Position numbers and translations under genes: made by a program. Positions 710-3,184 of a stretch of 38,322 nt of DNA are shown one piece after another. Numbering within the stretch: the first letter of the stretch is position 1; each line of letters starts with the position of its first letter. The notes under the pieces were generated by a model, which was given only the letters and a program-made list of their open reading frames with translations, was not told the DNA's origin and ran no database searches. The DNA is from Polaromonas sp. GTDB taxonomy: Bacteria; Pseudomonadota; Gammaproteobacteria; Burkholderiales; Burkholderiaceae_C. The DNA is taken from assembly GCA_025363315.1 (NCBI GenBank), contig JANYED010000121.1, positions 1 through 38,322 on the forward strand. Reading direction: 5' to 3'.

Positions 710-1347
710 TTACTTAGCAAGCAAAGTTTTGCCCCTGGCCAACAGACCTGCAACCAGCGGCAGCACCTCCGCCACGCCCGGGCTAGATTGCCTGGCCTGC
801 AGCTGTAGGTAAACAGCATTCAGCGCTTTAAAGTCTTCAGGGTTATTTGAGCCTGCGGTGATTTTGTCGGCTATTCGCTTGACCTCTTTAAGCAGTGCTA
901 TCAACTCATTGTTTGCCGCTATTTTCTGATCGGCTGCCGCTATGTCTGCTCGGCTGCCGCTATGTCTGCTCGGTTTGCCGCTATGTCTGCTCGGTTTGCC
1001 GCTATGTCTGCTCGGTTTGCCGCTATGTCTGCTCGGTTTGCCGCTATTTTCTGATCGGCTGCCGCTATTTTCTGATCGGCTGCCGCTATGTCTGCTTGTA
1101 ACGGACAAAGATTGGCAATCGCCTCACCACGCCGGCGCTCATAGATAGGTATCAAATGGGGCTTGCCGTCGGCCTGCGCTCGGCTGATTTTGTTGGCGTA
1201 GTCGGTCATCAGCTCTGCCTCGCATTTTTTAAAAGCGTCTTTACCTGCATCTTGCGCTTGCGCAGCCACTGGCGTCAGCGCCAGCCACGCCGCCATGACA
1301 AGACCCGTCAGGGGCATTAAATTTAGCTTTAGCGGTAGTTTGGTCAT
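710..1347 (-). pseudogene. Secreted heptad-repeat (coiled-coil-like) protein, reading frame interrupted inside a 21-nt tandem repeat (frameshifted or phase-variable)
   Basis: N-terminal part 1347..940: signal peptide MTKLPLKLNLMPLTGLVMAAWLALTPVAAQA then (AADQKIA/ANRADIA)n ending AAEQT*. The C-terminal part continues in another frame (ORF 710..1108: ...ADIAAADQKIAANNELIALLKEVKRIADKI...). Both halves carry the same heptads. Confidence 0.65.
911..1102 (-). repeat. Tandem 21-nt repeat array encoding heptads AADQKIA / ANRADIA, with one 20-nt hybrid unit
   Basis: Units on the minus strand: CAAACCGAGCAGACATAGCGG (x4), CAGCCGATCAGAAAATAGCGG (several), and one CAGCCGAGCAGACATAGCGG (20 nt, plus 937-956). 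Confidence 0.9.
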
Positions 1348-1386: not shown

Positions 1387-1698
1387 TCAGACCGCACGAA
1401 CGGACGCAACCAGCGGCTGTACCGCCAGCCTCAGCCCCATGGCCTTAAGAATGGCCGACAGGCTACTCAGGGCAGGGTTGCCCTTTGGGGACAGCGTTCG
1501 GTAAAGCTGGGTGGGGTTGAGATGGGCTTGTTCAGCCACAGCTTGAACGCCGCCAAATGCTTGCGCCATCTGGCGCAGCACGATCAACAGCTCGGCCTGG
1601 TCGCCGTCTTCTAGCATGCCATTGATCACTTCAAGCGCAAAAGCTGGGTCATCACGGTACAGCTGGGCCATCGCTTCGTCGTTGGGTTTACTTTTCAT
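1387..1698 (-). CDS. HigA/HI1420-like addiction module antidote protein (orphan)
   Basis: MKSKPNDEAMAQLYRDDPAFALEVINGMLEDGDQAELLIVLRQMAQAFGGVQAVAEQAHLNPTQLYRTLSPKGNPALSSLSAILKAMGLRL: HTH antidote family pattern. Good RBS (AAGGAGAAT) upstream. No toxin ORF recognised next to it. Confidence 0.8.
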   Translation of the reverse strand: MKSKPNDEAMAQLYRDDPAFALEVINGMLEDGDQAELLIVLRQMAQAFGGVQAVAEQAHLNPTQLYRTLSPKGNPALSSLSAILKAMGLRLAVQPLVASVRAV

Positions 1699-1741: not shown

Positions 1742-1873
1742 TCACCCCGAAATCGCAGCCAAATCCCCCGCCGTCAACCACCGCCACTGCCCCGCCTTCA
1801 AATCCTCCGGCAAAGCAAGCGACCCAATCCGTGAGCGGTGCAAACCGCCCGCGGCATTTGGCAGCAACATTGG
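1742..1873 (-). pseudogene. Diverged duplicate of the 3' end of rsuA
   Basis: Minus strand translates AGGLHRSRIGSLALPEDLKAGQWRWLTAGDLAAISG*, versus intact rsuA C-terminus AGGLHRSRIGALALPDDLKAGQWQWLTAGDLGLISG*. About 80% nt identity by eye over ~110 nt without gaps. Confidence 0.85.
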
Positions 1874-1876
1874 CAT

Positions 1877-2086
1877 TCACGACCAATTCAAATTGAGCTT
1901 GCGATGTGACGTGGCGCAGTCGCGCAAATACAAATTAATCAGGCTTTGATAAGGAATTCCGGCATCTTGCGATATGGACTTGAAATAGCTGATCGATTCC
2001 TCATCAAGTCGAATCGTGATTTGTTTTTTAAGTTGCGCTGCGTAGGGGTTCTTTCTGGCAGCGGTGAAGTCGTATTCTTTGCGCAT
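1877..2086 (-). CDS. brnA: BrnA-family antitoxin
   Basis: MRKEYDFTAARKNPYAAQLKKQITIRLDEESISYFKSISQDAGIPYQSLINLYLRDCA; immediately downstream of a BrnT-like ORF. Confidence 0.85.
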   Translation of the reverse strand: MRKEYDFTAARKNPYAAQLKKQITIRLDEESISYFKSISQDAGIPYQSLINLYLRDCATSHRKLNLNWS

Positions 2087-2095
2087 GTGACACCT

Positions 2096-2377
2096 TTACG
2101 GGTAGGACTTTGATTCTTGGGTACTTGCTTTGCGGGCTGAGATGATTCGTATCACAATGCCGTCACCCCGGTAGCAGTGACAAACCAGAAGCAATCGCAT
2201 AGCCGCACTCAAACCAAGCAGAACGAAACGATCTTCATCTTTGGAGTGATCGGGGTCATCAATCAGTTTGGCTAGTTCGTCGACGAAAACCGATTTCGCC
2301 TCGTCGAAGCTGACACCATGCTTCCTTACATTTGCCGCAGCTTTGCGTTCATCCCATTCAAAGCTTAGATTGCTCAT
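2096..2377 (-). CDS. brnT: BrnT-family ribonuclease toxin
   Basis: FEWDERKAAANVRKHGVSFDEAKSVF...DRFVLLGLS..LLLVCHCYRGDGIVIRIISARKAS matches the BrnT pattern. Confidence 0.9.
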   Translation of the reverse strand: MSNLSFEWDERKAAANVRKHGVSFDEAKSVFVDELAKLIDDPDHSKDEDRFVLLGLSAAMRLLLVCHCYRGDGIVIRIISARKASTQESKSYP

Positions 2378-2383
2378 ACATTA

Positions 2384-2412
2384 ATGATAACTACAGTGTA
2401 GTTATGTATCAA
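2384..2412 (-). promoter_or_regulatory. Putative brnTA promoter with autoregulatory operator
   Basis: Minus strand: TTGATA (2412-2407), 17 bp, TATCAT (2389-2384). Near-perfect palindrome ATAACTACA-c-TGTAGTTAT (2387-2405) fills the spacer. Confidence 0.65.
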
Positions 2413-2446
2413 GTACAGAATTTAAATTTAACTCCAGTGAGTCCCA

Positions 2447-3184
2447 TCACCCTGAAATCAACCCCAAATCTCCAGCCGTCAACCACTGCCACTGCCCGGC
2501 CTTCAAATCGTCAGGCAAGGCCAGCGCACCAATCCGCGAACGGTGCAGGCCCCCCGCACCACCCTCACCTTCCACCCGGTTGCCCACCGCTGCAATCATG
2601 CGTTTGACCTGGTGGTATTTGCCTTCCGTCAACGTCAGGCTCAGCTGATTCGGCCCGGTCTGCACACAAGCGGCGGCGCGTACCGGCTTGGGGTCGTCGT
2701 CGAGCACCACACCGCTCAGCAGTTTTTGCACCTGCTTGTCGTCTACCGCGTGCTTGGTCGTTACCTCGTACACCTTGGGCACGTGGTGTTTGGGCGAGCT
2801 CATGCGGTGAATGAATTTGCCGTCATCTGACAGAAGCAGCAGGCCTGTGGTGTCCTGGTCCAGCCGGCCCACGGCTTGCACGCCGGCTGCCGCGCCGCCG
2901 CCGCGCTGGCGTATGGGTGCGGGCAGCAGGGTGTAGATGCTGGGGTAGGTGCTGGGCTTTTGCGAGCATTCGTAGCCCGCAGGTTTGTGCAGCATCAGAT
3001 ACGCTTTCTCAAAGTACTGCCAGGGCGTGCCTTGCACCGTGAAGTGCATACCTTCTGCTACAAATTCAGTAGCTGGTAGCGCACATATCTCTTGGCCTAC
3101 AGCTACCAAACCCTGCTGAACCAGGCCTGCGCACACGCGCCGTGTGCCAAAGCCTTGCGAAAATAAAATGTCTTGTAATTGCAT
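2447..3184 (-). CDS. rsuA: 16S rRNA pseudouridine(516) synthase
   Basis: MQLQDILFSQGFGTRR...LMLHKPAGYECS...AVGRLDQDTTGLLLLSDDG...GKYHQVKRMIAAVGNRVE: S4 plus RsuA catalytic motif (GRLDxxTxGLLLL). The ORF opens at 3217 but 3184 is the likelier start. Confidence 0.92.
   Translation of the reverse strand: MQLQDILFSQGFGTRRVCAGLVQQGLVAVGQEICALPATEFVAEGMHFTVQGTPWQYFEKAYLMLHKPAGYECSQKPSTYPSIYTLLPAPIRQRGGGAAAGVQAVGRLDQDTTGLLLLSDDGKFIHRMSSPKHHVPKVYEVTTKHAVDDKQVQKLLSGVVLDDDPKPVRAAACVQTGPNQLSLTLTEGKYHQVKRMIAAVGNRVEGEGGAGGLHRSRIGALALPDDLKAGQWQWLTAGDLGLISG
3057..3107 (+). repeat. Dispersed element copy inside rsuA CDS
   Basis: tgctacaaattcagtagctggtagcgcacatatctcttggcctacagctacc. Confidence 0.6.

Follow-up and report, generated by a model that had tools for sequence, protein, structure and literature searches.

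How do small defence and toxin–antitoxin (TA) modules enter the chromosome without transposases? This old and open question is raised by a stretch of Polaromonas DNA of 38,322 nucleotides, referred to here as the window, in which a brnT-brnA pair is bracketed by two copies of the 3' end of rsuA. The minus strand reads, in order, rsuA (3181-2447), brnT (2377-2096), brnA (2086-1877) and a second rsuA 3' end (1852-1742). The features of the locus are the following:

2447-3181, minus strand: rsuA-like pseudouridine synthase gene, complete, with the proximal tail copy as its end (Pfam PseudoU_synth_2, E = 6e-17; partial S4 domain)
2447-2557, minus strand: proximal copy of the rsuA 3' end, the gene's present working end (direct repeat, 82% identity to 1742-1852)
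2389-2403, no strand assigned: palindrome AACTACAcTGTAGTT just upstream of brnT, conserved in an alignment of brnTA loci from different contexts
1873-2413, minus strand: 541-bp brnTA unit, common to brnTA loci in unrelated genomic contexts (blastn)
2096-2377, minus strand: brnT, ribonuclease toxin of 93 aa (Pfam BrnT_toxin, E = 4e-28)
1877-2086, minus strand: brnA, antitoxin of 69 aa (Pfam BrnA_antitoxin, E = 1.3e-8)
1742-1852, minus strand: distal, detached copy of the rsuA 3' end including the stop codon (direct repeat)
1387-1698, minus strand: HigA-type gene resembling the antidote of an addiction module, located past the distal tail (Pfam PF21716 dnstrm_HI1420, E = 4e-11)

The identities given to brnT, brnA and the pseudouridine synthase in the original prediction are upheld by Pfam (E = 4e-28, 1e-8 and 6e-17, respectively), and the BrnT toxin domain precedes the BrnA antitoxin in one operon on the same strand with 9 bp between the genes, which is the organisation of a type II toxin–antitoxin system. 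The two rsuA tails lie in direct orientation on either side of the pair, as had been proposed; 1742-1852 and 2447-2557 align over 111 nt without gaps at 82% identity (BLAST E = 3e-28), a value that rules out a chance repeat as the origin of the tail pair. The distal copy had been drawn as reaching from 1742 to 1873, and this holds as far as 1852, where the similarity to rsuA ends; bases 1853-1873 are outside the tail copy, and the brnTA unit shared with other loci occupies 1873-2413. On the other side the similarity includes the stop codon, as predicted, and extends about 20 nt beyond it with a small indel, the string GACTCA.TGG being present in both copies. The distal tail copy translates to AGGLHRSRIGSLALPEDLKAGQWRWLTAGDLAAISG and stop, the other to AGGLHRSRIGALALPDDLKAGQWQWLTAGDLGLISG and stop. 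No third copy was found in the host assembly (386 contigs), so that 1742-1852 is the only second one.

The boundaries of the brnTA unit emerge from blastn comparisons of the window with 80 brnTA loci that were picked by BrnT similarity alone. In the closest loci the similar segment includes approximately 36 bp in front of the start of brnT and runs to the stop codon of brnA, in some cases continuing for a few bases; in L036 and L005, and likewise in others, it starts near 2413 and stops near 1873, and the surroundings are unrelated. The palindrome AACTACAcTGTAGTT within the upstream segment is probably the operator of brnTA, judging from its place and conservation. The unit consists of two genes, and neither an integrase nor anything resembling a mobility gene was seen in it. 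Combinations of an rsuA tail and brnTA in other genomes had been suggested as a check; none of the 80 closest loci contains rsuA, and no plasmid in PLSDB carries a similar stretch. On the far side of the distal tail lie the antidote-like gene and a PIN-domain gene; no toxin partner was seen beside the antidote-like gene, which sits between the distal tail and a repeat-rich gene. The latter (710-1347, minus strand) contains 21-bp (7-residue) tandem repeats, one unit of which is 20 bp long and splits the reading frame in two, as repeat slippage would.

The origin of the two tails can be read from their divergence. One explanation of the locus is a strict insertion with a long target duplication, in which a cut with a long stagger would leave two copies of the resident tail that diverged later. 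Such duplications, on the order of 100 bp, are described for restriction-modification genes in the account given in PMC3874152, and the bracketing repeats of the window are of that size (111 nt, 82% identity). However, the proximal and distal tails are identical at 73 of the 87 compared positions, whereas each of them matches the tails of the relatives G039, G040, G067 and G073 at 76-78 of 87. Copies that arose by duplication within a lineage would be each other's closest relatives, and because the window tails are more distant from each other than from the tails of other species, they represent the ends of two different rsuA lineages rather than a recent local duplication. The differences are moreover those of a functional gene: between the two copies 14 of 20 fall on codon position 3 (p = 9e-4), and the distal tail departs from the clade majority at eight sites, all eight of them third codon positions, which argues that the detached tail diverged as part of a working rsuA. 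Two different lineages are thus shown in the window tails, and an old duplication with later drift of the detached copy appears unlikely. The attempt to pick the native tail of the window by its identity to relatives failed, both tails being equally distant.

In a scan of 87 genomes of the genus, many of them metagenome-assembled genomes (MAGs), two further genomes, G085 and G040, proved to carry another rsuA tail in the same orientation and on the same contig. The insert at the rsuA end of G085 is a type II CRISPR-Cas system (L120, G085:C17, 4227-11343) comprising cas9, cas1, cas2 and an array of about 20 repeats with a 66-bp period (PADLOC: Cas9, E = 4e-64; Cas1 type II, E = 3e-83; Cas2, E = 5e-30). 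Its two flanks map to a single uninterrupted segment of G067 at 95.5% and 97.3% identity, with an overlap of 214 bp, and likewise in G073; these two sister genomes provide uninterrupted, clean empty sites for the insert. The distal tail of G085 ends like the rsuA of G067 itself, including unusual residues (...AACSLAGSKIAGAFDALKT and stop), and the proximal tail ends ...AAIAGSGK and stop. Here, too, most differences between the copies (10 of 13) are at codon position 3 (p = 0.0016), and the left half gives mixed signals as to which copy is native and which foreign. In G040, the insert of which encodes a TctC protein along with a sulfatase, there is near-identity between the two copies of rsuA over about 110 bp, after which they split abruptly into a clade-type end on the proximal and a divergent end on the distal side; the latter is followed by the conserved genus order c11-c5-c4-c2. 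A foreign proximal end combined with a native distal end and flank is therefore seen in both genomes, and an uninterrupted single-copy target is demonstrated for the G085 insert and, by gene order, for that of G040; in the window, the tails tell of two lineages only. The ends in G085 and G040 differ in a way that copies of a single target cannot, which counts further against target duplication. The replacement of the terminal codons of rsuA, another element of the original prediction, was shown for the CRISPR-Cas and sulfatase inserts, and we infer it for the window.

We propose that brnTA entered together with a foreign rsuA 3' end from the same clade by homologous recombination, and we put the probability of this reading at about 60%. 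The brnTA module would have arrived with an rsuA 3' end attached to it, derived from a different lineage of the clade, and homologous recombination within the conserved end of the gene would have linked resident and incoming DNA. One tail would then complete rsuA, the module would come next, and beyond it the other tail would remain, cut off from its gene; the proximal tail of the window would be the incoming one. Regarding the molecular route, it appears likeliest that a circularised donor molecule unable to replicate was integrated into the chromosome through one crossover, or else through a one-sided variant with one homologous and one illegitimate joint, which fits G040 better. The same anatomy with different cargo and a native far flank in G085 and G040 lends support to the earlier suggestion that a foreign segment of rsuA tail and brnTA recombined with the resident gene.

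The contig could also be conceived as a chimera, in which the assembler joined the rsuA regions of two species; the host assembly is split into 386 contigs with 4.3% contamination, and G040 has 7% contamination. Yet neither the brnTA unit nor the stretch from brnA to the distal tail repeats the rsuA region, so that there is no shared sequence for an assembler to join, and the same anatomy recurs on a 79-kb contig of G085 (98% complete, 2% contamination) with exact empty sites in two sisters. An assembly artefact is accordingly very improbable.

The earlier comparison to integration at tRNA 3' ends evokes a different process, in which a recombinase acting in trans would integrate cassettes with the rsuA end as attachment site, like satellites at tRNA genes. 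The targeting of a gene's 3' end, the restoration of that end and the displacement of the native tail downstream are all in keeping with such a mechanism, and some related brnTA loci are found in gene arrays separated by tRNA 3' ends. Nonetheless, neither the brnTA unit nor the CRISPR-Cas insert of G085 holds an integrase, the duplicated lengths (about 111, 214 and 246 bp) and their end points differ among the three genomes, and the tails in the window share no identical run longer than about 11 nt. A short attachment core may be common to all inserts at the rsuA end, but the comparison with an integrase-driven process is not supported, and we consider site-specific integration in trans quite unlikely.

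Beyond the three genomes with duplicated tails, the genus scan revealed that the site itself is used repeatedly. The gene order downstream is kept in nearly all of the 86 rsuA neighbourhoods, and five genomes have insertions directly at the rsuA end: brnTA in the window genome (G000), another brnTA in G039, hsdM in G018, CRISPR-Cas in G085 and the sulfatase with TctC in G040. The pair in G039 (L122, 7105-7687, minus strand), which directly follows rsuA, is a different BrnT-BrnA (Pfam E = 9e-13 and 1e-21), next to a probable HNH protein for which no Pfam or PADLOC family match gave confirmation. The hsdM gene of a type I restriction-modification system in G018 (L134, 173-1813, minus strand; N6_Mtase, E = 2.5e-116) likewise lies directly after rsuA. 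The five insertions all belong to one clade of 11 genomes (support 92/92) in a tree of rsuA built from its first 600 nt; there they are interleaved with empty sites, and several events are therefore needed to explain them. Insertions occur in 5 of 11 genomes inside the clade and in 0 of 74 outside (p = 1.4e-5, a descriptive value given that the clade was noticed after the fact). For this count G067 and G073 were treated as empty; G067, G073 and G085 have in common two additional genes (c18, c17) that separate rsuA from the usual gene order and were not scored as an insertion, and G085 was counted for CRISPR-Cas only. The unrelated neighbourhood in G016 was not scored either. The rsuA end is thus an insertion hotspot of one clade with varied cargo.

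Tail duplications are confined to genomes with an insert (G000, G040 and G085), and a duplicated tail without an insert, the case named beforehand as contrary to the prediction, was looked for and is absent from the genus genomes scanned. Several candidates were discarded on the way to this tally. In G033 and G023, the incomplete rsuA copies are genes that run off the end of a contig rather than tail duplications, and a second full rsuA in G039 is probably contamination. The arrangement is not a family-wide habit either: among single genomes of other genera, the only second tail on the same contig was that of G000 itself. The usual downstream gene c4 (beta-propeller) has no close match in the host assembly, and the window contig stops at base 1, so that more inserted DNA may follow the distal tail of the window. 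The site would be reused because rsuA stays intact and because cargo such as TA, restriction-modification and CRISPR-Cas systems is self-retaining; a mostly self-retaining or protective cargo would favour the survival of such rare events.

Target duplication draws support from brnTA loci elsewhere, which are often bracketed by repeats of unrelated sequence. In the 68 of the 80 loci with enough flank, direct repeats within 300 bp bracket brnTA in 16 cases, the background in these loci being 23 of 9018 positions. Multi-copy arrays account for 5 of the 16: those of L033, L039, L051 and probably L066 are made of tRNA 3'-end repeats, and that of L078 is attC-like. In the remaining 11 the repeat is present in two copies. 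Among these repeats are the end of an ABC-transporter ATPase gene (L031, L038) and that of a patatin-like gene (L058), both named from their translations; in L067 the repeat is a segment of a small cyanobacterial gene, of which two relatives have a single copy at the matching place. All five two-copy loci tested (L031, L038, L058, L010 and L067) lack a bias of differences towards third codon positions and may, on this evidence, be plain target duplications; third-position bias is not borne out as a general rule for repeat-bracketed brnTA. For the window, the divergence of the rsuA tails described above makes target duplication an improbable explanation. Bracketing is not a property of all TA modules, considering that in an order-wide sample it was seen for 3 of 25 BrnT, 0 of 24 ParE and 0 of 28 cold-shock genes.

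The multi-copy arrays deserve a description of their own. In L051, L039 and L033 (also in L066 and L056) brnTA resides in tandem single-gene arrays in which every gene has behind it the 3' half of a tRNA, CCA included, and then a terminator. These arrays are cassette-like and built on tRNA ends; that of L039 starts with an intact tRNA-Phe, and in that of L051 no integrase was evident among the listed ORFs. In L078 (4871-12279) brnTA is located inside an integron-like array of attC-like repeats of about 98 bp with inner inverted repeats. Loci of this kind could suggest that the window module is an integron gene cassette flanked by attC sites, but its repeat is the coding end of rsuA, present in two copies only, with neither an array nor an attC site, and the chance that it is such a cassette is negligible. 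In L036, from Rhodoferax, the unit is bracketed by the start rather than the end of a gene that looks like an enoyl-CoA hydratase (1917-1987 and 2646-2716; 71 nt, 89% identity).

Entry by recombination with a foreign rsuA end has precedents in part. In E. coli, in work that dealt with single-crossover integration and homology-facilitated illegitimate recombination, the integration of non-replicating plasmid DNA by a single crossover yielded a duplication in 56 of 60 clones, and gene-end duplications of 109-950 bp bracket the integrated DNA in sequenced clones (PMC3240628); those events concerned laboratory plasmids at lacZ, whereas the ones reported here are natural, interspecies and repeated at one site. 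The variant with one homologous and one illegitimate joint has been proposed for T6SS effector modules (PMC5361080). The displacement of T6SS effector-immunity modules and Rhs tips likewise uses a conserved gene part as anchor and keeps the old 3' part downstream as a remnant, but in that case the toxin system provides its own anchor, and here the anchor is the end of an unrelated housekeeping gene (PMC5361080). The long target duplication of restriction-modification genes (Nobusato et al. 2000), as summarised in PMC3874152, shares with our locus an addiction-type unit without its own transposase between target-derived direct repeats of about 100 bp; in contrast to what that summary describes, the cargo here is a TA module (CRISPR-Cas in the sister), and the repeats belong to different lineages and are not simple target duplicates. 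A type II TA pair between two long direct repeats is also found in Microcystis, although the 152-bp repeats are identical, reported as intergenic and endowed with inner inverted repeats (PMC7935541), unlike the coding end of a neighbouring gene seen here. Finally, the hotspots and defence islands of E. coli are a parallel for one chromosomal site with varied defence systems across strains (PMC10121019), the differences being the rsuA end, the betaproteobacterial genus (probably Rhodoferax, to judge by the named brnTA loci nearest to that of the window) and the lack of a recognised mobile element.

Together, the locus and its sister genomes provide an unoccupied site, the repeated use of one site by varied cargo, and a two-lineage tail signature. 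This signature separates recombination via a foreign homology arm from duplication by a staggered cut, and it can be applied to repeat-bracketed defence genes elsewhere; the complete CRISPR-Cas system that entered the chromosome with a 214-bp gene-tail duplication offers a clear test case. We tentatively suggest that defence and addiction modules of this clade might spread without a recombinase of their own, coupled to a housekeeping-gene 3' end that serves as a homology arm and restores the gene when they enter. If this were true, the long 'target duplications' around such modules would be traces left by recombination between lineages, and it is in this way that the rsuA end would have become a hotspot, whether for TA, restriction-modification or CRISPR-Cas systems.
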